Part shown: positions 14,780 through 27,066 of the stretch, one piece after another
Position numbering within the stretch: the first letter of the stretch is position 1
Layout: every line of letters starts with the position of its first letter
NCBI GenBank assembly: GCA_905235605.1
Contig: CAJOMF010000018.1
Location: 1 to 32,831, forward strand
Direction: 5' to 3'
Origin: an uncultured bacterium
GTDB lineage: Bacteria > UBP6 > UBA1177
Length of the DNA: 32,831 nucleotides
Program-made: the position numbers and the translations under genes
Notes under the pieces: generated by a model
Database searches by the model: none
What the model was told of the DNA's origin: nothing
Seen by the model: only the letters and a program-made list of their open reading frames with translations

Positions 14780-16111
14780 ATGAAAAAAATTGTTTTATTC
14801 GCAATCTGTGTATGTTTTTTTATTACACCAGTTTATTCTGAAACTGAAGCTGATTATCAGAAAAGACAAGAAGATGCGAAGAGACGGTATGTAGAAGAAC
14901 AAAATAGCAAATTTGATAAGTTTGTAAGAGAACAGGAAAAAGAACTTGCAAAATTTATAAAAGACCGCGAATTGAAGTTTCAAGAATACTGGGGCGTAGT
15001 CGACGAGGAATCCTTTTCTGATGCACAGAAAGGGTCGGATGATGAAGAACCGGTTCCTTTTCGGGCAAAATTTTCAGTCTGCTTTAACTGCGGTGACAAC
15101 GGTGCCGATTTGCAGGTTGCCAATGAAGACCAAAGCGGCACTTGGGATTGGAAAACTGCAAACAGTAGTTGCGAGGAAAAAGGTAACGGCTGGTATTTGC
15201 CCACGAAAGATGAACTTAAAAAGATTTACGGATTAAAGAAAGAAATGGGCGGTTTTTCCGACGCGGAATACTGGAGCATTTCTCAAGAATGGAAATCTTT
15301 AGATAAAAACAGTGCATTATCAAGAGCCATAAATTTTAAGGACGGCAGGAGCGGTTTATATAATCCAAGTGAAGCAAAAGGGGTTCGCTGCGTCAGAAGA
15401 ATGCCTGATTCTCAGGATGGTAGTGCTAAAAAAGTCGTTGTCGAGTATGACAAGACCCCGAAGGATGAAAGCAGAAAAGAGGAAGTTCAACAGCCCGAAC
15501 CCGCGCCCCAACTTGAGGATAAAACTCCGAAAAATGAGACCAAGGACGAAAAAGTCCGGCAACCAAAACCGATAACAAAAGTTGAAGACAAAACTCCGAA
15601 GAGTGAGACTAAAAAAGAAAACCTTAAACCGAATAAACCCACAGTATTTACAAAAGATGAATTTGTTTGGCCAGTGGAAAATTATTGTCATCGCGTAATA
15701 ACCAGAAAATTCGGTCTTGTAAAAGACATTGTCAAAGGGAAACCTGTAGAAGGGAAAAAAGATAATCATAAAGGTATCGATATTGCCTGCCAAGGGATAA
15801 AGATAAAAGGAAAGCCGGTAACAGCTGCAGCAGCCGGAAAGGTTGTTTATGCCGGATTTGACAAAGGTCGCAACAAAAGCTACGGCAATTACATAAGAAT
15901 TGAGCATCCTGACGGATCTCGAACCATTTACGGGCATCTTGATGCAATAACCGTTAACCAAGGCGATAATGTAATGCAAGGTCAGGAAATAGGCAAAGCC
16001 GGTGACACAGGGTTTGTTACCGGTCCGCATCTTCATTTTGAAGTGAGGAACAATAAGAATGAACCATTGAATCCATTGAAATATCTTCCCGAAATGGATC
16101 CTAACAAATAA
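14780..16111 (+). CDS. Secreted DUF1566 (Lcl) - M23 metallopeptidase fusion
   Basis: The 443-residue protein has a signal peptide (cleavage near VYS-ET, 20-21) and a charged coiled coil (about 22-70). A DUF1566/Lcl lectin-like domain (about 95-207) shows GWYLPTKDEL, YWSIS and VRCVR. A linker of three imperfect repeats built on EDKTPKxETK follows, and then a C-terminal M23/LytM domain (about 290-440). The zinc-site motifs are intact: HKGID (His330, Asp334) and HLH (His417, His419), with YGHLD between them. It should act in the periplasm as a DD-endopeptidase on peptidoglycan cross-links, or as a LytM activator of amidases. AGAGGT precedes the ATG. The lectin-fold domain may position it on the wall or on glycans; that is inference. 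Confidence 0.85.
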   Translation: MKKIVLFAICVCFFITPVYSETEADYQKRQEDAKRRYVEEQNSKFDKFVREQEKELAKFIKDRELKFQEYWGVVDEESFSDAQKGSDDEEPVPFRAKFSVCFNCGDNGADLQVANEDQSGTWDWKTANSSCEEKGNGWYLPTKDELKKIYGLKKEMGGFSDAEYWSISQEWKSLDKNSALSRAINFKDGRSGLYNPSEAKGVRCVRRMPDSQDGSAKKVVVEYDKTPKDESRKEEVQQPEPAPQLEDKTPKNETKDEKVRQPKPITKVEDKTPKSETKKENLKPNKPTVFTKDEFVWPVENYCHRVITRKFGLVKDIVKGKPVEGKKDNHKGIDIACQGIKIKGKPVTAAAAGKVVYAGFDKGRNKSYGNYIRIEHPDGSRTIYGHLDAITVNQGDNVMQGQEIGKAGDTGFVTGPHLHFEVRNNKNEPLNPLKYLPEMDPNK

Positions 16112-16120
16112 GGTGTTGGC

Positions 16121-17629
16121 ATGAGACATTTATTCTCAATTTTGACCGCAGTTTTCGCGGTTTTTGTGTTTTTAATTAGTTGCGGCGGCAACGAGCCGGG
16201 TTCAATCTACGGCGTTGTAACCGATAAAGCTACCGGCGAACCGATTAAAAATGCAGGTGTTGAACTTCTTCCTGTCGGTTTGAAAACTGTGACCGGTTCC
16301 GACGGTTCGTTTGAATTTATGGATATTTCGTCAGGACACTATAATTTACTGGTAACAAAAACCGGTTACAGCGACACGAAAAGCAGCACTATCACGGTTG
16401 AATCTGGCAAGCAGTCGAAAGGTGATGTTCAATTGGAGAAAGAACCAGCCGCTCTTCGAATAGTTGATGATTCTAAAAACGATATTTCTGAACTTGATTT
16501 TGGTGCAAGACTCGATGATGTTTCGCGTGCTTTCGGCATTTTCAATGACAGTCCTGATTCCATCGAATGGGATATTACAACGACCGCGAAATGGATTGAA
16601 TCTGTAAGCAAAGATTCAGGGAGACTTGAAGCGGGAGAGACTCAGGGTATCATAGTTGTGATCGACCGCAGTTTATTGCGTGAAGGTGAGAACTTAACCC
16701 AGCTCCATGTCACATCAAACAACGGTAACAAGCAGCTTGCTATAAAGGCGATTAATTCTGATGTTGTGACACTTGATACGACAAAAATAAAGGCTGCTTC
16801 TGCTACATTAAACGGAGAACTTATTCGTAACGATGATGAATATACGGAAACCGGTTTTGTCTACGGCGGAATGGCTACTCCTTCATTTGACAACAATGCC
16901 AAAACAGTAAGCAACTCCGCTGTCAGGCTCGGTAGTTTCGGCAATGCAATTTCTGGTCTAAAAGAGTCAGCCAACTGTTATTACCGGGCTTACGCTAAAA
17001 ACGACTCAAAGACTGTTTACGGCGAAACAAAGAGTTTTGCGACTCTTAAATCTGTTAAGACGCTTGATGCGACTAATATTAGTACAAATTCCGCCAAACT
17101 TAATGGTGAACTTGTTTATAACGATGCAGGTTATACTGAAACAGGGTTCGTTTACGGCGGAATGTCTATCCCTTCACTCGATAACGGTGCCAAAAAAGTA
17201 AGCAATTCTCCAGTTCAGGTCGGGAGTTTTAGTAATACCGTTTCCGGACTTAACGACTATACCAAATATTATTACCGGGCTTACGCGAAAAACGATGCAA
17301 AGACTGTTTACGGCGCAACAAATAGTTTTGCTACTCTTAAACTTAACCTCAAAGAGTCTGTCACATTGCCCGGTGGTCTTGTAGTAGCAAAACAAGATGC
17401 AACAACAGGAGTGAATTGGAGCAGCGCAGTTTCTCTGTGTAACAACTACACGCTGGAAGGATTGACCGACTGGCGTCTTCCGTCAAAAAACGAACTGATA
17501 ACAATGTATAACAACAAAAACTTGATAGGCGGTTTTAAAGACGGCGATTATTGGTCTTCTACTTCCAATGGTAGTAACTGTGCGTGGACCGTAAACATTC
17601 ACAAATGGAGATGTCCACAACTACAGTAA
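16121..17629 (+). CDS. DUF1566 lipoprotein, candidate DGR target, frameshifted in its variable 3' end
   Basis: The 502-residue reading frame has a lipobox (FLISC, Cys21), a carboxypeptidase-regulatory-like domain (about 25-105), a BACON-like beta domain (about 110-210) and two tandem 97-residue FN3-like repeats (214-310 and 311-407). A DUF1566 domain follows (from about 410, DWRLPSKNEL near 450). The C-terminus is a candidate DGR variable region. Near 17596 one extra base relative to the copy at 18161-18272 shifts the frame, so translation ends at 17629 instead of the TAG at 17661-17663 that would give the normal YVRCVR end. The start is the ATG at 16121, ten bases after the previous stop. 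Its N-terminal half is related to the protein at 18393. Whether the frameshift is real or an assembly error cannot be seen here. Confidence 0.82.
   Translation: MRHLFSILTAVFAVFVFLISCGGNEPGSIYGVVTDKATGEPIKNAGVELLPVGLKTVTGSDGSFEFMDISSGHYNLLVTKTGYSDTKSSTITVESGKQSKGDVQLEKEPAALRIVDDSKNDISELDFGARLDDVSRAFGIFNDSPDSIEWDITTTAKWIESVSKDSGRLEAGETQGIIVVIDRSLLREGENLTQLHVTSNNGNKQLAIKAINSDVVTLDTTKIKAASATLNGELIRNDDEYTETGFVYGGMATPSFDNNAKTVSNSAVRLGSFGNAISGLKESANCYYRAYAKNDSKTVYGETKSFATLKSVKTLDATNISTNSAKLNGELVYNDAGYTETGFVYGGMSIPSLDNGAKKVSNSPVQVGSFSNTVSGLNDYTKYYYRAYAKNDAKTVYGATNSFATLKLNLKESVTLPGGLVVAKQDATTGVNWSSAVSLCNNYTLEGLTDWRLPSKNELITMYNNKNLIGGFKDGDYWSSTSNGSNCAWTVNIHKWRCPQLQ
16760..17341 (+). repeat. Intragenic tandem duplication, two units of 291 bp
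   Basis: Units 16760-17050 and 17051-17341 each encode 97 residues with shared blocks such as YTETGFVYGGM and YYRAYAKND. They end identically in SFATLK. The units are in frame and diverged, so this is an older duplication that could still recombine. Confidence 0.9.
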
Positions 17630-17663
17630 GAATAACGAGAGTTATGTTCGTTGTGTGAGGTAG
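17551..17663 (+). repeat. Candidate DGR variable repeat (VR)
   Basis: This 113-base 3' end of the 16121 gene matches 18161-18272. The first 20 bases and the last 22 bases (from TTATGTTCG to the TAG) are identical. In between, 11 substitutions occur, and all replace an A of the other copy: four in 17571-17580, then 17589, 17610, 17616, 17622, 17626, 17637 and 17641. One indel with a mismatch lies at 17596-17597. Codon changes include AAT to AGT, AAT to TGT, AAC to ACC, AAT to GAT, AAC to CAC and AAC to TAC. The placement at the end of a C-type-lectin-like domain is the usual DGR arrangement. Confidence 0.8.
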
Positions 17664-18160
17664 GTCGTGGCCGCATTTTACGAGCGCAGCGAGTTATTTT
17701 TGTCCGCCCTTTTGAAGATGGCGGACGCTTGGCTTTATTCTGAACCCCTCTCAGTCAGCCTCTGGCTGCCAGCTCTCCCTAATGAGGGCGAGCCAAGGAA
17801 AAACTTGCCTCTCACTCAGGGAGAGGTGTCTCGCAGTGACGGAGATGGCATCCCGCCAAGGGCGGGTCGAAAAAAAATTTTTAACTTGGTATCAGGCGGC
17901 GTTTTATTACGCTGTTTGATTCATAAAGACGAAGTGCGGAAAATAATCACCCTTTTGGTGAAACGGCAGAATTCTGAAAGTATTGCACTTTCAGGAGCGT
18001 TCCGAAGTTTGCGGCTAGATCAGAGAGCCTGTGAAGCATATCCGCGAGTCAGCCTGAAATGCGGCGGATGCTCACCCGTACTGGGGCATTCCGTCCGGCT
18101 GACTCCGCAGAAATCCGTACCTGACAGGATCGGATTTTCTGATAATAATCCTCTGAATTT
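17664..18160 (+). other. Non-coding structured spacer between VR and TR
   Basis: I see no credible gene here. An open frame runs through it but gives low-quality, repeat-derived sequence. Several inverted repeats are visible: GTCCGCC/GGCGGAC (17702-17708 and 17720-17726), a CCTCTC/GAGAGG hairpin near 17810-17828, CCCGCC/GGCGGG near 17853-17867, and AGTCAGCC/GGCTGACT (18047-18054 and 18097-18104) enclosing further pairings. The 17745-17830 part resembles dispersed palindromic intergenic elements seen in other anaerobes. The 18047-18104 fold lies 57 bases before the template repeat and could be part of a template RNA; that is inference. Confidence 0.6.
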
Positions 18161-18272
18161 TTGGTCTTCTACTTCCAATGATAATAACAATGCGTGGAAC
18201 GTAAATTTCACAAATGGAAATGTCAACAACAACAATAAGAATAACAAGAATTATGTTCGTTGTGTGAGGTAG
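18161..18272 (+). repeat. Candidate DGR template repeat (TR)
   Basis: This 112-base sequence lies outside any credible gene and is the adenine-rich partner of the variable repeat at 17551-17663. Read in the phase of the target it carries 15 AAY (Asn) codons, the hallmark of DGR templates, because A mutagenesis of AAY can yield about 15 amino acids without stops. Its core 18181-18250 has 37 A in 70 bases. Every clean difference from the VR is at an A: 18181, 18184, 18189, 18190, 18199, 18219, 18225, 18231, 18235, 18246 and 18250. The 3' end TTATGTTCGTTGTGTGAGG is shared with the VR, and the two diverge soon after, as expected around an initiation-of-homing site. No reverse transcriptase gene follows it within the window. 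Confidence 0.78.
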
Positions 18273-18340
18273 GTAGGTCGTGTACGCAGACAAGCACTTC
18301 AATCATCCTCTGCAGGTTCGGGAAACTGAATCTGCGGAGG
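18252..18340 (+). repeat. Direct repeat downstream of TR, copy 1, with hairpin
   Basis: Bases 18252-18340 recur almost unchanged at 19950-20037 (one base of length difference). Each copy starts in the YVRCVR-encoding end. Each ends in an imperfect inverted repeat, CCTCTGCAG (18307-18315) and CTGCGGAGG (18332-18340). In the second copy it lies just behind a complete DUF1566 gene. This suggests the template segment arose from, or exchanges with, the 3' end of such a gene. Confidence 0.85.
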
Positions 18341-18392
18341 AAATTAATTGTGAAAATACAAAAAAATGATTGTTCATAAAATGGAGAATGTT

Positions 18393-19970
18393 ATGAGAAA
18401 ACATCCTATTCCAACACTTTTAGTTTTAGCTCTCAGTTTGACTTTCGTCGCCTGCGGCGGCAGCGAGCCAGGTTCGATTTATGGCGTTGTTACAGACAAG
18501 GCTACGGGAGAACCGATTCAAAACGCAGGAGTTGAACTTCAGGGTTCAGGCAGGAAGTTTGATACCGGTTCCGACGGTCTGTTTGAATTCAATGAAGTTG
18601 CAGTCGGCACTTACACCCTTTACGTAACAAAAACAGGATATGTTGATCAAACGAGTAGTGAAATAATAGTGGAAGCAGGAAAAACCGCTGAGAGAGGTAT
18701 TCAGTTAGAGAAAAAAGCGGTTGGATTGAAAATAGTTGATGATGATAACAACGAAATTTCAGAGCTTGACTTCGGAGAAGATTTAGCCAATGTCTCTCGT
18801 TCGTTCTATATTCGGAATGACGGGTCTGATAAGCTTGAATGGGAAATCTCTTTTCCTGTCGGCTGGGTGGAATCTGTCAGCATGGATTCCGGCAAAGTCA
18901 AAGCAGGAGACAGACAGGGTGTAGTTGTGAATATTGATCGCAGTCTTCTGAAAAGCGGCGAAAACAAAACAATTATTATTGTGACATCAAACAACGGTAA
19001 TGCGGAAATTGCGATAAAAGCGACGGATGTTGATCCATGCAAAGAAGATCCGTGCGGAGGTCATGGGGTCTGTACATGGACGGGAGATGACGGCAAATAT
19101 TATACATATACATGTGAATGCGATGATGGATATTATCTTGATAAAGAATTTTACGACTACCGTTGGTTTGAATTTTGTACGAATCCGTGTGAAGACAATC
19201 CCTGCGGCAGTTTCGGCATCTGCAAAGCTACAGCGGCTAAAGATTATAAATGTGAATGTGATGCAAATTATTTTTGGGACGGTTCTAAAAAATCCGAATG
19301 TATAAATCCGTGTGAGGATAATCCTTGCGGTGAAAGAACTTGCACGGCAAAAGATTATGATAAATTCACATGTAATTTATGCAACCCTGATCCGTGCGGG
19401 AACGGAATCTGCTCAGAAATAGAAAACAGCTCGGATAAATATGAGTGCAGGTGCGATGGTGACAATTTCTTTGACGGTTCTAAGTGCTTGCCTTTATCAG
19501 AAATGGCTGAATGTGAACCAGGATGTTCTTTCCCGTGCAAAGACTCAACGAGTGGACTAATGTGGACCTCAAGGACTGCAGCTCACTTTTTTTGGAATAG
19601 TGCAAAATCTGTGTGTGATTCTTTGATATATGCTGGTTTTTCCGACTGGAGACTTCCAAACATCGATGCTTTGCGTACATTAATTCAGAATTGCCCGAAT
19701 ACATCCACAGGCGGTAAATGCAAAATTTCGAGTTCATGTCATTCATATGAGTATTATGATTGTTATGTTGAGGATGACTGCAGAACTTGCGGTGCTAATA
19801 ATCCTTCGATAAGTAAGCTGAATGATACGATTTCGCTTTGGTCTTCTACTGTCAATAATGGATTGGGTACTACAGACGAAAGTCCATGGCTTGTTGATTT
19901 TTCCGATGGATCTATAAATATTTACCACTATTACTCTGGTGAAACCCCATATGTTCGTTGTGTGAGGTAG
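18393..19970 (+). CDS. DUF1566 lipoprotein with EGF-like Cys-rich repeats
   Basis: The 525-residue protein starts at the ATG at 18393 (GGAG at 18383-18386). It has a lipobox ending VAC (Cys21) and a carboxypeptidase-regulatory-like domain (about 25-105) nearly the same as in the 16121 protein. A BACON-like domain (about 110-210) follows, then four EGF-like Cys-rich modules (about 213-375) marked by NPCEDNPCG patterns. The C-terminal DUF1566 domain (about 385-525) contains DWRLPNIDALR, LWSST and the terminal YVRCVR. It is an outer-membrane or surface lipoprotein likely to bind an unknown ligand. Near its end a run of Tyr/His/Ser codons (TAC CAC TAT TAC) looks like AAY-derived variation, but it does not match the TR in this window. 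Confidence 0.83.
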   Translation: MRKHPIPTLLVLALSLTFVACGGSEPGSIYGVVTDKATGEPIQNAGVELQGSGRKFDTGSDGLFEFNEVAVGTYTLYVTKTGYVDQTSSEIIVEAGKTAERGIQLEKKAVGLKIVDDDNNEISELDFGEDLANVSRSFYIRNDGSDKLEWEISFPVGWVESVSMDSGKVKAGDRQGVVVNIDRSLLKSGENKTIIIVTSNNGNAEIAIKATDVDPCKEDPCGGHGVCTWTGDDGKYYTYTCECDDGYYLDKEFYDYRWFEFCTNPCEDNPCGSFGICKATAAKDYKCECDANYFWDGSKKSECINPCEDNPCGERTCTAKDYDKFTCNLCNPDPCGNGICSEIENSSDKYECRCDGDNFFDGSKCLPLSEMAECEPGCSFPCKDSTSGLMWTSRTAAHFFWNSAKSVCDSLIYAGFSDWRLPNIDALRTLIQNCPNTSTGGKCKISSSCHSYEYYDCYVEDDCRTCGANNPSISKLNDTISLWSSTVNNGLGTTDESPWLVDFSDGSINIYHYYSGETPYVRCVR

Positions 19971-20037
19971 TAGGTCGTGTACGCAGACAAGCACTTCAAT
20001 CATCCTCTGCAGGTTCGGGAAACTGAATCTGCGGAGG
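19950..20037 (+). repeat. Direct repeat, copy 2, with hairpin
   Basis: This is the second copy of the 18252-18340 segment, covering the end of the 18393 gene and its 3' flank. The hairpin arms are CCTCTGCAG (20004-20012) and CTGCGGAGG (20029-20037). Confidence 0.85.
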
Positions 20038-20268: not shown

Positions 20269-21843
20269 ATGGGAATTTACATCAATCCTGGGAATGAGAA
20301 TTTAAAAAGAGCTCTGAATTCGGAAATTTTTGTCGATAAATCGCTTTTTATCGGCAAAATCAGCAAGTTACTGAATACTGAACAGCGTTTTATCTGCGTT
20401 TCGCGCCCGCGCCGCTTCGGCAAAACGATGATCGGAAATTTGATGAAAGCATACTTTTCAAAAGGGTGCGATTCGAGAGACATTTTTTCGAACCTGAAAA
20501 TAGCCAAAGATCCGTGTTTCGGAGAAAATCTTAACAAATTCAATGTGCTGTCGATTGATTTTGGAGGTTTTTTCAGTTCCTCAAAAAACAAAAACGATGT
20601 TCTTTTAAATCTTTACAGTGAACTTTTTGAGGACTTCCGCAAAGAGTTCCCAAACATTGAATTTTCTGAAAAAGATTCTGTTGCCAAAATGGTTCAGCGG
20701 GTTTATACGGAAACAAACACTCAATTCATTATAATCATTGACGAATACGATGTTCTGGTGCGCGAGCAGATCCCTGAAGATATATTCAAAGGCTACCTTG
20801 AGCTGCTCAATTCGCTTTTCAAAAACAACGAACTTTCACCCGCGATCGCTTTTGCATATCTCACAGGAATCCTGCCGATCGTGCGTGATAAGGTGCAGTC
20901 GAAACTCAATGTTTTCAAGGAATCAACAATGCTTGAGCCTTTCGGGATGGAAGAGTTTTTCGGCTTCACGAAAGCCGAAGTCAAGGATCTTTGCAGGCAG
21001 TACAAAATGAAGTTCAAAGAGTGCGAAGAGTGGTATGACGGCTACAGAATCAGCAAAATCAGCGTTTACAACCCGAATTCGCTTGTCGAGGCGATGTTGC
21101 GCCGCGAATGTGCCAACTACTGGAATGTCACGGGCTCCTACGAAGTCGTTTCGGACTACATCAAGCTCGATTATGACGGAGTAAAAACAGCCGTAATCGA
21201 TATGATTGCCGGAAAAGAAATCAAGGTCGACAGCGGTAATTTTGAAAATTCACTGAACAAAATCAACACAAAAGACGATGTTTTCACATATTTGATCCAT
21301 CTCGGTTATATTAATTATGATAAAAAAACGGGGCTCTGCCGCATTCCGAACAAGGAAATCAAGCAGGAATGGGAAAAGGCAATAAAAGTTGCCGGTAATT
21401 TCGCAAAAATTGCCGAAATGATCAAGGATTCCGACAGCCTGCTTTATCTCACCCAAAACGGTGCGTCAGAAGAGGTCGCAGCCGCTCTGGACAGGGCTCA
21501 CATCGAGGTTTCGAGTGCTTTGAACTACAATTTTGAATCCTCTCTGCAGGCCGCGATAATTCTGGCTTACTACACCGCCAGAACAAAATACACGGTGATT
21601 CAGGAACTTCCTGCGGGTTACGGTTTTGCCGACATCGGATTTATTCCGAAAAATCCGAAAGATCCTGCAATTCTGATTGAGTTAAAATGCAACCAGGACG
21701 CCGACACGGCGATAAAGCAGATAAAAAACAGGAATTATCCGAAAGCTTTCGAGAATTATTTGGATAATCTGCTGCTTGTCGGGATAAATTACGACAAAAT
21801 CACGAAAGTCCACGAATGTGTCATCGAGAAATATCAGAAATAA
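20269..21843 (+). CDS. AAA-ATPase-like / PD-(D/E)XK nuclease-like protein
   Basis: The 524-residue protein belongs to the family combining an N-terminal AAA-ATPase_like domain (PF09820) with a C-terminal PD-(D/E)XK domain (PF08011, DUF1703). It begins MGIYINPGNENLKRAL and has the P-loop-like SRPRRFGKT (near 45-53), a Walker B IIIIDEYDVL (near 155) and the nuclease-like motif FADIGF ... ILIELKCN with Glu-Leu-Lys near 470. A very good ribosome-binding site (GGAGGA) precedes the ATG. The family is greatly expanded in gut and anaerobic bacteria and often mobile. Its function is not established; roles in DNA transactions or defence have been suggested. It lies between two dispersed repeats, in line with acquisition as a module. 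Confidence 0.88.
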   Translation: MGIYINPGNENLKRALNSEIFVDKSLFIGKISKLLNTEQRFICVSRPRRFGKTMIGNLMKAYFSKGCDSRDIFSNLKIAKDPCFGENLNKFNVLSIDFGGFFSSSKNKNDVLLNLYSELFEDFRKEFPNIEFSEKDSVAKMVQRVYTETNTQFIIIIDEYDVLVREQIPEDIFKGYLELLNSLFKNNELSPAIAFAYLTGILPIVRDKVQSKLNVFKESTMLEPFGMEEFFGFTKAEVKDLCRQYKMKFKECEEWYDGYRISKISVYNPNSLVEAMLRRECANYWNVTGSYEVVSDYIKLDYDGVKTAVIDMIAGKEIKVDSGNFENSLNKINTKDDVFTYLIHLGYINYDKKTGLCRIPNKEIKQEWEKAIKVAGNFAKIAEMIKDSDSLLYLTQNGASEEVAAALDRAHIEVSSALNYNFESSLQAAIILAYYTARTKYTVIQELPAGYGFADIGFIPKNPKDPAILIELKCNQDADTAIKQIKNRNYPKAFENYLDNLLLVGINYDKITKVHECVIEKYQK

Positions 21844-22034: not shown

Positions 22035-22730
22035 ATGAAAAAAATTATGGTTGTTTTTGTTTTGGCGGCACTTGTGTGCTGTACTGTCGTTGTCAAAAAA
22101 TATGTGGATGATCTGCGCGAAGGCGAAGCGAGTTGCAGATATGAACGAGAGGCTGAACAGGCGGACGATACCGCATTTAAACAGGCTGCAAGCGCATTTA
22201 AAATTGTAGAATTGGAAAAATATCTGAAGGATTTTCCGACTGGCAACCATGTTGTGGATGCTGCAGAGAGGATCCGTGAGCTTAAAGATGAGGAGACAAA
22301 GGAACTTGTATGGTCGGAACGTTTTTCCAAAGCCGGAACTTGGGCCGCGGCCGTGAGTTACTGCGGTAATCTGAATGAGGGCGGGCACAACGACTGGAGA
22401 CTTCCAACTATTGATGAGCTTAGGACGCTTATCAAAAATTGTCCAAAGACGGAAAGAGGCGGAAGCTGCAAAGTCAGCGAAAGAAACGCCTGCCTCGCCG
22501 ACAACTGTTTTTCTCAGGATTGTTATTGTGATTCAAACGAACAGGAGGGATATTACAGTAAATTAGGCGACGGAGATATTGTCTGGCTTTGGTCTTCATC
22601 GGGCAATTCCGACGATCCTGAAAGATTTTGGTATGTAAGTTTTGCCAGCGGAATGGTAGGCTCTTTACTAAAAGAAGGTTACAAGGGCGACGATGATTCA
22701 GTCCGCTGTGTCAGAATGCAGGTAAAATAG
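22035..22730 (+). CDS. DUF1566 (Lcl) domain protein, membrane-anchored or lipoprotein
   Basis: The 231-residue protein has an N-terminal hydrophobic segment (MKKIMVVFVLAALVCC) that may be a lipobox or an anchor. A helical linker (about 30-90) with ELEKYLKDFPTGNHVVDAAE follows, and then a DUF1566 domain (about 92-228). Characteristic elements are NDWRLPTIDELRTLI, a Cys-rich insert (SCKVSERNACLADNC), LWSSSGNS and VRCVR. GGAGGT precedes the ATG. It ends only 23 bases before the leucine-rich-repeat gene. Ligand and role are unknown; the DUF1566 fold is lectin-like. Confidence 0.83.
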   Translation: MKKIMVVFVLAALVCCTVVVKKYVDDLREGEASCRYEREAEQADDTAFKQAASAFKIVELEKYLKDFPTGNHVVDAAERIRELKDEETKELVWSERFSKAGTWAAAVSYCGNLNEGGHNDWRLPTIDELRTLIKNCPKTERGGSCKVSERNACLADNCFSQDCYCDSNEQEGYYSKLGDGDIVWLWSSSGNSDDPERFWYVSFASGMVGSLLKEGYKGDDDSVRCVRMQVK

Positions 22731-23335: not shown

Positions 23336-23787
23336 ATGAAAAAAGTTTTGATTGTTGTGCTTGTTTTGGCTGTTGCCGCAGCGGTGTTTCTGTTGAAAAA
23401 ATCTAAGGAACAAATCCGGGAGGACTGTTCGGATGCGGAAGACTTGAAGAAAACGGACATACGGACTGGAGGCTGCCGAATATTGACGAACTCAGAACAC
23501 TTATTCAATACTGCCCGAAAACGGAAACCGGAGGAGAATGCAAAGTCAGTGCAAAAAACAAATGTTTAAATGGTGACTGCATGAAGCCGGAAGATTCTTG
23601 TTCTTGTGAACAAAAAGCGGATGTTGAATACAGTAAATTGCCAAATGAGAGTTGGCGTATTAATTGGTTTTGGTCATCTTCCACTTTGTCTGACAGTAAA
23701 AACTCGGCTTGGAGGGTCGATTTCAGCAATGCAGAAGTGGGGGAGAGTTATAAAGTTGGTGAAAACTATGTTCGTTGTGTTCGTTGA
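23336..23787 (+). pseudogene. Disrupted DUF1566 gene (deletion plus frameshift)
   Basis: An N-terminal membrane anchor (ATG at 23336, MKKVLIVVLVLAVAAAVFLL) is read in one frame. From about 23434 the DUF1566 part continues in another frame (CGRLEENGHTDWRLP, then NIDELRTLIQYCPKTETGG, FWSSSTL and terminal YVRCVR, stop 23787). Compared with the gene at 22035, the linker of about 60 residues between anchor and domain is missing and the frames no longer join. Translation from 23336 would end at 23569 with unrelated sequence. A short reinitiated product from the ATG at 23581 is possible but unlikely to fold. It is a decayed paralogue of its neighbours. Confidence 0.8.
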
Positions 23788-24575: not shown

Positions 24576-26150
24576 ATGACTCAAAAAACTCCTTCCATAT
24601 TCAAAAAAAGTTCTGATTTGGCGGTCCTCACAGTAATTTCGCGCATTTTAGGCTTGGTTCGTGAATCCGTAACGGCGGCTTTGCTCGGCACCGGCGTTCT
24701 TGCTGACGCATTCAGTGTTGCTTTTATCGTGCCGGACATGGTGAGGAGACTTTTTGCCGACGGGGTCATGTCAGCCGCATTCATTCCTCAGTTCAAAGGG
24801 CTTGTTACCGAAAACAAAAGGGAGCGTGCTACTGAGTTCTTGAATGCAGTCTTTAGCATTGTTACGGTTTTTGCGTTCGTGGCGGTCGTCATACTGATGG
24901 TTTTTTCGGGAAATCTGGTTTCAGTGCTTTCGCCTTCGTTTGATGCAGAAAGTGCAAAAGAAGCGGCATTCCTCGCAAAAATAATGTTCCCCTACATCTT
25001 TTTTATAACTCTTGCCGCGCTGATCCAAAGCGTTCTCAACAGTTCCGGTATATTCAGACCGAGCGGCTTTTCGCCGATAGTTTTCAATATCACTTTCATC
25101 ACCCTTGCGTTTCTGCTTGCTCCGCTTTCCTCCGATCCTGCGCGCGCGCTGTCGGTCGGCGTTCTTGCCGGAGGTTTCATGCAGATGGCGGTACAGTTCC
25201 CGTTCATGCGGAAAACGCTTTTCAGATTCCGCTTCGTCAGTCTGAAAAAAGCATTTAATGAACCGTTTATCAAGAAGTCGTCGAAGATGATTCTGGCGAC
25301 GCTTTTCGGAACGGGTGCTTACCAGATAAACATTCTTCTCACCACCAGTTTTGCAAGCAAAGCGGGTGTCGGAGTCGTCAGTAGCCTCCGTTTTTCGGCG
25401 CGAATAGAAGAGCTTATCCTCGGCATTTTCGTTGTTTCGCTGAGCACGGTGATCCTTCCCGAACTTGTTGAAAATGCGAAAAGCGGAAACAGCGGGGCTT
25501 TGGAAAAAAATCTCTCGTCAGCTTTGAATTTCGTTGCATTCATATCGATCCCGGCAGTCATTTTCACCGTTTTCAATTCCGATGAAATGGTGAAACTCCT
25601 TTTCGGTTTCGGAAAATTCGACGGAACATCGGTAACGCTAACTTCCGATGCAGTGAAGTTCCGCATTTTCGGACTGTTTTTCATCGCGGTATCGCGTATC
25701 ATGATCTCGCTTTTCTACGCTTTCGAAAAAACGAATGTTCCGATCATTGCAGGGCTTACTTCAATTATTGTCAATTTCGCCGCGGCATACTTTTTAGTCG
25801 AATTCCTTGCGGGAGGAGGCATCGCACTCGCTTCTTCGATAGCTGCTTTTTCGTGTGCCACGATCCTTTTTGCATACAGCTTTTTCTTTTTCAAAGGTGC
25901 TCTGAATCTCGGCAAAGTCGCTCTTTATTTCGTTAAAATTTCAATAATTTCAGTTGTTTCTCTGCTGCCGGCGCTTTTTTTGAAAGGGCGGATCTACGCT
26001 TTTTTTGACACTTTTTTCAAACCTGGCAAAATAAGCGAAATGTGTTCTTTTTCAGCAACGGCGGTTGTTTTTATGGTAATTTTTGCCGGTATATCGGCAG
26101 TTTTGAAAGATGAAATGCTTGAGACTATTAAGGGGATCTTCAAAAAATAG
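24576..26150 (+). CDS. murJ: Lipid II flippase MurJ (MviN family)
   Basis: The 524-residue protein has about 14 hydrophobic segments of the MOP superfamily. It carries MurJ signatures near the N-terminus: SRILGLVRE, then LGTGVLADAFSVAFIVPDMVRRLFADG and the AFIPQF motif. It flips undecaprenyl-linked peptidoglycan precursor across the inner membrane and is normally essential. The ATG at 24576 is preferred: it has GGGGTG upstream and gives the usual short cytoplasmic N-terminus. A TTG 60 bases upstream is in frame but adds an odd hydrophobic extension. The gene marks the return to core chromosome after the accessory island; a DUF1566-AgmX fusion follows after 10 bases. Confidence 0.93.
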   Translation: MTQKTPSIFKKSSDLAVLTVISRILGLVRESVTAALLGTGVLADAFSVAFIVPDMVRRLFADGVMSAAFIPQFKGLVTENKRERATEFLNAVFSIVTVFAFVAVVILMVFSGNLVSVLSPSFDAESAKEAAFLAKIMFPYIFFITLAALIQSVLNSSGIFRPSGFSPIVFNITFITLAFLLAPLSSDPARALSVGVLAGGFMQMAVQFPFMRKTLFRFRFVSLKKAFNEPFIKKSSKMILATLFGTGAYQINILLTTSFASKAGVGVVSSLRFSARIEELILGIFVVSLSTVILPELVENAKSGNSGALEKNLSSALNFVAFISIPAVIFTVFNSDEMVKLLFGFGKFDGTSVTLTSDAVKFRIFGLFFIAVSRIMISLFYAFEKTNVPIIAGLTSIIVNFAAAYFLVEFLAGGGIALASSIAAFSCATILFAYSFFFFKGALNLGKVALYFVKISIISVVSLLPALFLKGRIYAFFDTFFKPGKISEMCSFSATAVVFMVIFAGISAVLKDEMLETIKGIFKK

Positions 26151-26160
26151 AGGTGAGCTC

Positions 26161-27066
26161 ATGAGAAAAATTTTGTTTTTGGTTGTTTTGAATGCGGCAT
26201 TTTTTACGGCGGCTCTTTTTGCAGAGGGTGAGAATCTGGTTTTTTCCGCCCGTTCTTTAGAGAAAATGACGTGGAACGAGGCTCAGGATTTCTGTAAAGG
26301 AATCAAATTTTACAATGAGGAGTGGCGTCTGCCGAATATCGATGAATTGCGTGAACTTGTGCGCAACTGTCCTGCGACCGAGCCCGGAGGAAGCTGCCGC
26401 GTAAGCGAAGAAGGTAACTGTCTTGCAGGAAACTGCAGTCAGCCCAAAGATTCATGCACTTGCGAAAGGAAACTGAAAAACAGAGGTTTTTACAGCATGT
26501 TCGGCGATGCGGATTACATCGGGCTCTGGTCTTCATCTACACTTTCAAATGATGAGAAAAAGGCTTGGGGAGCCGTTTTTTACAGCGGAATGATTGGAAG
26601 TCTCGGCAAAGATGCAAAACTTTATGCAAGATGCGTTAGCGAGCCTAAGTCGAGCAGCGGGACTAAAAACGGAGAAAAAACTGAAAAAATAGAACTGGAA
26701 AATAATGGAGTTGCAAGTGTCGGGGAAAAAGGCGGAACGGCTGTCGTTTCCGGAAAAGTCGACAAAAATAAGTTTGATATAGATAAATATATTGATGAAA
26801 AAAACAGCGATATTTCCCATTGCGTTTACCGTGGACTTAAGGAAGACAAAGACCTTTCGCATGGAATGGTTGCTATAGATTTTATGATTGCAGAGACAGG
26901 AGAGGTCGTTTATTCAAATGTTAAGATGAGCACGACCGGTAATCTGACTGTTGAAAATTGTATAGCGGAAATGATTAAAAAGGTGAAATTTCCTGCTTTG
27001 GGAAAAGATACGACAATATATGCGAACGAAAGATTCCGTTTTCATGCAAAAAGAGGGAAGAAATAG
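26161..27066 (+). CDS. Secreted DUF1566 - AgmX/TonB-C-like fusion protein
   Basis: The 301-residue protein (ATG at 26161, GAGGTGA upstream) has a signal peptide with cleavage near LFA-EG (about 22). A DUF1566 domain (about 25-160) follows, with EWRLPNIDELRELVRNC, a Cys-rich insert, LWSSSTLSN and ARCVS. A polar linker leads to a C-terminal domain (about 205-300) containing ISHCVYRGL, GMVAIDFMIAETGEVVYSNV and ENCIAEMIKKVKFPAL. The paired Cys and the G-x-V pattern match the AgmX/PglI C-terminal domain, a TonB-C-like fold, also present in the next gene. It starts 10 bases after murJ. The role is unknown; the architecture suggests an envelope-spanning or surface contact protein. Confidence 0.78.
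   Translation: MRKILFLVVLNAAFFTAALFAEGENLVFSARSLEKMTWNEAQDFCKGIKFYNEEWRLPNIDELRELVRNCPATEPGGSCRVSEEGNCLAGNCSQPKDSCTCERKLKNRGFYSMFGDADYIGLWSSSTLSNDEKKAWGAVFYSGMIGSLGKDAKLYARCVSEPKSSSGTKNGEKTEKIELENNGVASVGEKGGTAVVSGKVDKNKFDIDKYIDEKNSDISHCVYRGLKEDKDLSHGMVAIDFMIAETGEVVYSNVKMSTTGNLTVENCIAEMIKKVKFPALGKDTTIYANERFRFHAKRGKK

Follow-up and report, generated by a model that had tools for sequence, protein, structure and literature searches.

A putative stand-alone template of a diversity-generating retroelement beside an Lcl_C lipoprotein gene

The stretch of DNA analysed here (the window; 32,831 nucleotides) is the entire contig C18 of a 136-contig draft genome of 2.67 Mb with 96% completeness, from an uncultured bacterium of the ruminant gut, and positions 17890-18292 of its forward strand are best read as a non-autonomous template of a diversity-generating retroelement (DGR). 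This template would be used in trans by the reverse transcriptase (RT) and Avd protein encoded on another contig, C86, for the diversification of the neighbouring Lcl_C (DUF1566) lipoprotein gene, a reading to which a probability of about 80% is assigned. DGRs, DUF1566/Lcl_C targets, remote targets, and activity in trans are already known; what appears to be new is a stand-alone template unit occurring in two species, with conserved RNA structure located 5' of the template repeat (TR).

Variable repeat, template repeat, and target gene

The target gene and the elements from which the repeat pair is recognized are as follows.

16121-17629, forward strand: target gene, extent as read in the assembly, with the frame lost within the variable repeat
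17551-17663, forward strand: variable repeat (VR) of the target gene, located at its 3' end, with 11 clean substitutions and a 1-nt insertion
17643-17669, forward strand: IMH-like VR 3' end, TATGTTCGTTGTGTGAGGTAG GTCGTG, common to the TR and to VRs elsewhere in the genome
17702-17726, forward strand: target-site hairpin GTCCGCC-cttttgaagat-GGCGGAC, 38 nt 3' of the VR, its role assigned by analogy with BPP-1 (PMC3240598)
18161-18272, forward strand: template repeat TR2, encoding ..NFWSSTSNDNNNAWNVNFTNGNVNNNNKNNKNYVRCVR, defined by VR alignment and codon comparison

The alignment of VR and TR2 spans both copies entirely. The first-pass annotation had counted 11 clean substitutions and placed every one at an A of the downstream copy, and realignment reproduced this count exactly (A>G seven times, A>C twice, A>T twice), with 11 of the 43 template A positions changed and non-A mismatches at 0-1 of 69 positions, the sole candidate mismatch sitting beside an indel. 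The suggestion that such a pattern exceeds chance is likewise borne out, the hypergeometric probability of 11/11 at A being approximately 1.1e-5 (43 A in ~112 aligned TR positions) and 4e-4 on the stricter 37-of-70 core used in that annotation. With 102 Lcl_C matches in the genome, ordinary duplication or conversion between Lcl_C genes without any DGR, or plain chance, would be another way of obtaining two similar copies; such an origin has a negligible probability in view of the A-only pattern (p ~1e-5), the shared IMH-like end and hairpin, and the presence of an RT and Avd in the genome, and it is refuted by the A-specific VR/TR patterns together with the homology of the leader to those of RT-linked TRs.

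The target protein combines a lipoprotein-like N-terminus, a CarboxypepD_reg domain, two repeats of ~97 aa, and a C-terminal Lcl_C (DUF1566) domain, and the VR lies at the C-terminus of this Lcl_C protein, as judged from the profile match and a modelled homologue. The structural model, made for a homologous DGR target domain (mean pLDDT 76), found its best match in the C-terminal domain of Legionella Lcl (E 2.4e-4), followed by C-type lectins, so that the homologous domain is predicted to fold like these proteins, in agreement with the lectin-like nature proposed for the DUF1566 target. The absence of stop codons proposed at the same time holds in part: the substitutions themselves introduce none in the TR frame, but a net 1-nt insertion in the VR (gtaaaCAttc against gtaaaTttc in the TR, ~17595-17597) shifts the frame, so that in the assembly sequence the target is not open through the VR and its open reading frame stops at 17629 (...HKWRCPQLQ), while in a TR-like frame it would stop at 17663, ending in ...VRCVR. 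The present target allele would lack the end of the lectin domain, unless the insertion is an assembly error.

Beyond the IMH-like end, VRs continue with (A/G)CCGCAT and TRs with (A/T)ACGCA(A/G)ACA, and VR ends in the genus read GTTCGTTGTGTGAGGTAG or a close variant; the window pair thus has the shared 3' end (IMH/IMH*) of DGRs along with a hairpin downstream of the VR. A G+C-rich hairpin with compensated pairs is found ~38-44 nt past the stop at the DGR VRs examined in the genus, and the hairpin of the window carries a T-A pair in place of C-G. In BPP-1, homing depends on a hairpin directly downstream of the VR, the stem of which may vary in sequence (PMC3240598); the BPP-1 hairpin lies immediately 3' of the VR, whereas that of the window and the genus is further off.

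The template unit and its leader

The unit downstream of the target gene comprises an avd-derived 5' part, a leader with several helices, and TR2.

17890-18292, forward strand: TR2 unit, the stand-alone template, delimited by homology to contig C23 of G012, another species of this genus, and to RT-linked units
17947-17961, forward strand: hairpin P0, TCACC-CTTTT-GGTGA, in the avd-derived 5' part of the unit
17973-17995, forward strand: leader helix P1, CTGAAAGT-ATTGC-ACTTTCAG, with compensatory changes
18046-18105, forward strand: leader helix P2, GAGTCAGCC/GGCTGACTC, its arms swapped for other complementary pairs in relatives
18108-18141, forward strand: leader helix P3, CAGAAATCCG/CGGATTTTCTG, directly 5' of the TR and followed by ATAATAAT
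18306-18341, forward strand: terminator-like strong inverted repeat directly after TR2, candidate 3' end of the template RNA

Positions 17890-18288 match G012:C23 at 82%, and homology to the RT-linked avd-leader-TR arrangement extends from 17911, inside the avd end, to 18292, before the RT. When the genome itself was searched with 17960-18300, full-length homology was found only at C86:581-890 (75%), taking in the TR as well as the sequence 5' of it, namely the last part of avd and then the leader. In the window avd itself is gone, and the 196-nt leader (17965-18160) shared with RT-linked templates is kept. Since a complete DGR with a template of its own (TR1) is present on contig C86, this comparison indicates that TR2 is a second, remote template separate from TR1 and no stray copy of it.

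Within the TR, 9 of the 12 differences between TR2 and TR1, and 12 of the 18 between the TR2s of the window and G012, fall at codon position 3, while the differences between the two TR2 leaders are distributed as 11, 8, and 5 over the three codon positions. The third-position bias in the TR and its lack in the leader argue that the untranslated TR has kept its amino-acid meaning, as expected of a template in use. A long open frame (17667-18272) encloses the TR but, given the leader counts, does not resemble a coding gene; a coding leader was rejected on these counts and on a 1-nt frame change relative to TR1. No known RNA family was found in 17500-18500. Derivation of the unit from a phage, plasmid, or virus was also rejected, with no match to the unit in phage and plasmid records and none to the P3 pattern in viral contigs.

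At the position of P0, the avd gene of RT-linked units can form CTCAAAA-AACA-TTTTGAG, and P1 covers the avd end in these units. The arms of P2 are replaced in relatives by AAACAGCC/GGCTGTTT, GGCAGTC/GACTGCC, or CAGCTC/GAGCTG, and the long P2 has wholly different yet complementary arms in the window TR2, the G012 TR2, the TR1s, and G006. P3 is almost invariant in nine sequences, and G006 rebuilds it with CGACAG/CTGTCG. The TR1s and TR2s show the same helices in single-sequence folds, with the caveat that some minimum-energy folds miss some of them. Of the pairs predicted for the window TR2 leader, 51 are unchanged relative to the G012 TR2 leader, 4 are altered on both sides with pairing kept, 3 are altered on one side, and 3 are broken. 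The evidence for the helices consists of such sequence-by-sequence folds; the covariation term of RNAalifold on a plain leader alignment is about zero because P2 is misaligned there, and some leaders reach only modest z-scores against shuffled sequences (TR1, -1.5). The stretch from TR to RT has no excess structure (z +0.8), and in compact loci only ~30-40 nt separate the TR end from the NIFxAY motif of the RT. In G012 and G014 (loci L126 and L129) the TR is separated from the RT by repeat-rich insertions of ~110-130 nt, which shows that the 3' spacer tolerates insertion.

Two repeats adjoin the unit. An 89-nt direct repeat (99%; 18252-18340 and 19950-20037), which includes the inverted repeat, stands after TR2 and again after the 3' end of gene 18366-19970. 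Lcl_C genes of the RT-less genomes G008 and G009 have similar 3' flanks, and the repeat may represent a second class of target end. A dispersed intergenic repeat at 17735-17850 has nine matches in the genome, one of them directly downstream of TR1 on C86, and may have helped to duplicate DGR pieces.

The complete DGR of contig C86 and an RT-less sister of the TR2 unit in a second species

Neither RT nor Avd is present on the 32.8-kb window contig, as the first-pass annotation had noted of the RT, and the single cassette of RT, Avd, and TR that is typical of DGRs, though not essential, is accordingly missing there. The only intact RT of the genome lies on contig C86 (8.6 kb), where a VR-bearing gene end cut by the contig end, an Avd-like open reading frame, TR1, and the RT follow one another on one strand. 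The VR of C86 differs from TR1 at 21 of 45 A positions and at 1 of 59 other bases. The RT contains the DGR motif GLPIGNLTSQ, conforming to [ILV]GxxxSQ, together with YVDD, and among solved structures it is closest to 8ub7 (E 4e-42), which we take to belong to the BPP-1 DGR RT series. The Avd-like product encoded upstream of TR1, matching the PHROG family 'Avd protein of DGR' (E 3e-11) and weakly the NCBIfam Avd model (E 0.019), supplies the accessory protein (Avd or HRDC) that characterizes DGRs. A search of the whole genome for a DGR-type RT and Avd had been proposed, the absence of such an RT from the genome and its close relatives being regarded as fatal to the DGR reading; RT and Avd are found beside each other on C86, the RT with IGNLTSQ and YVDD, and a DGR-type RT occurs in 7 of 15 genomes of the genus.

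These relatives are MAGs from the ruminant gut. A covariance model of the leader detected it in all seven RT-bearing genomes and in none of the eight RT-less genomes of the genus, and gave no match when applied to 10 genomes from the order's other genera. The VR/TR pairs of the relatives that lie in cis are almost purely A-specific (for example 21/21, 20/20, 18/18, and 16/16 changes at A), and the proportion of changed A in the window VR (11/43) is below that of most such pairs. Two genomes, G004 and G014, have two DGRs apiece.

The second species, G012, has its RT cassette on its contig C18, and on its contig C23 (15.7 kb, covered over its full length) an Lcl_C gene with a VR is followed by a leader-TR unit without RT, although G012 is listed at 6% contamination and the assignment of C23 to it is uncertain. 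The two TR2s group together with 98% support, differ at 18 of 81 positions, and have surroundings with no synteny. The proposal of a split or trans-acting system holds, and it is refined by this RT-less sister and by the finding that the remote unit has a structured template RNA of its own. The TR2/VR pair of G012 has ~4-7 non-A differences, depending on the ends chosen, and this copy may be decaying.

The unit would have originated by duplication of the avd end, the structured leader, and the TR from an ordinary avd-TR-RT cassette. Its presumed transcript would contain the leader helices P0-P3 followed by TR2, probably ending at the inverted repeat 18306-18341, and would be recognized in trans, via the leader, by the RT-Avd of C86. 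Copying of TR2 would then yield cDNA with errors at template A, which would replace the VR (17551-17663) of the neighbouring lipoprotein gene, with the IMH end common to both repeats and the hairpin beyond the VR serving as guides. The A-only differences, the parts of the system, and the conserved leader structure are observed, and transcription, RNA binding, the choice of the C86 RT over one missing from the assembly, and present activity are presumed in this scheme.

Outside template A, the window VR and TR2 differ at 1 of 69 positions at most, compared with 18 of 81 positions between the TR2s of the two species, which argues that the last rewriting of the VR is recent relative to the split of these species. 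As both TR2 units lack an RT, this rewriting probably took place in trans; alternatively, the RT may have been lost independently in both lineages. TR2 could also be the relic of a formerly complete DGR, the VR having last been rewritten beside an RT at a locus that is now dead. The frameshifted target, the mere 11 of 43 changed A, the non-A drift of the G012 copy, and the decayed second RT on contig C23 of the present genome (a 118-aa fragment), which demonstrates that DGR decay has occurred in the lineage, speak for such a history. It is nevertheless considered unlikely, given the near identity of VR and TR2 outside A against the divergence of the TR2s, the occurrence of both RT-less units in unrelated neighbourhoods, which fits an RT-less state older than the rewriting, and the maintenance of the leader structure through compensatory changes.

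The enzyme serving TR2 might also be a second RT, unassembled or lost in this isolate, instead of that of C86. The VRs on contigs C11 and C27 of this genome correspond to a third TR type (1-2 non-A mismatches in 73), which occurs in relatives and is absent here; a truncated RT of the third-TR kind persists on C23; G004 and G014 have two DGRs each; and a 136-contig draft with 96% completeness could miss another RT. The RT remnant of this genome is a C-terminal fragment and the intact RT is that of C86, making a second enzyme rather improbable, and it would alter which RT acts while leaving action in trans unaffected.

Use of TR2 in trans by the C86 proteins would accord with a wider, tentative view, held at slightly less than even odds, in which the DGRs of the genus are modular: a leader-TR RNA gene encoding no protein would be a maintained class of non-autonomous template, an RT-Avd encoded elsewhere would recognize the 5' leader, genes gaining an IMH end and hairpin would be enrolled as targets, and the RNA structure would lie 5' and not 3' of the TR, the reverse of BPP-1.

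Known systems and the lectin repertoire of the genome

The Bordetella phage BPP-1 system, with the order avd-TR-brt, shares with the present one a DGR-type RT, Avd, A-specific change, a common 3' end of TR and VR, and a hairpin downstream of the VR. There, RT-Avd is recruited by the folded spacer on the 3' side of the TR, within which an adenine primes the cDNA (PMC12875486), whereas here the spacer of compact loci is short, the conserved structure is 5' of the TR, and TR2 lacks avd and RT. The DGR network of Thiohalocapsa PB-PSB1 comprises several loci, some of them RT-less, with diversification in trans inferred and, as here, repeats near DGR parts; its incomplete loci are called degenerate, and a complete locus holds the TR to which some of the VRs correspond (PMC10907252). 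Unlike these, the RT-less locus of the window has its own distinct TR, its own matching VR, and a sister in a second species. VR genes far from the RT are known from cyanobacterial DGRs, as remote variable proteins (PMC7517822), and from Pseudogulbenkiania, as distal targets (PMC3521204); there the target is remote, whereas here the template itself is. DGRs of the human microbiome include DUF1566 targets with a C-terminal VR and multi-TR systems (PMC4159848, PMC6642488), and the parts of these accounts consulted describe them around RTs or as partial contigs and report no conserved stand-alone template RNA. No description of a stand-alone template unit with its own TR, common to species, was found in the open literature searched. 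By their own statement, RT-centred surveys do not find remote targets (PMC8144416), and since they miss parts away from the RT, a stand-alone template would be missed too.

The arrangement suggests that DGR protein-diversifying systems can work as dispersed parts, with no need for a single cassette. If the template works in this way, it reveals the RNA parts that RT-Avd needs, apparently the leader 5' of the TR with no more than a short 3' tail, and one RT could serve several differently encoded lectin repertoires per cell. The stand-alone TR2 also suggests a compact design for add-on templates, and the leader yields a covariance model for seeking further ones.

Several other VRs were considered as targets of the two templates. 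Gene 18366-19970 was rejected as a third VR of TR2, with differences at C, G, and T as well, and the VRs on contigs C29, C13, C11, and C27 were rejected as targets of TR1 or TR2, as TR types of relatives fit them better. The VRs of C11 and C27, and less cleanly those of C29 and C13, match TR types of G004, G012, and G014 at nearly all non-A sites, and none of these TR types is present in this genome; to judge from such matches, these VR genes are orphaned after loss of their template. The C-terminal remnant of the second DGR RT lies at C23:9819-10175 of this genome (G000; L161:4820-5176).

The genome holds a very large lectin-like surface repertoire, its 102 Lcl_C matches in 2.67 Mb including some proteins of more than 2,700 aa with many copies. 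The Lcl_C genes of the window are located at 14780-16111, 16121-17629, 18366-19970, 22035-22730, 23407-23787, and 26110-27066, and this cluster is adjoined at 20269-21843 by a gene for a protein with AAA-ATPase_like and PDDEXK_9 domains.
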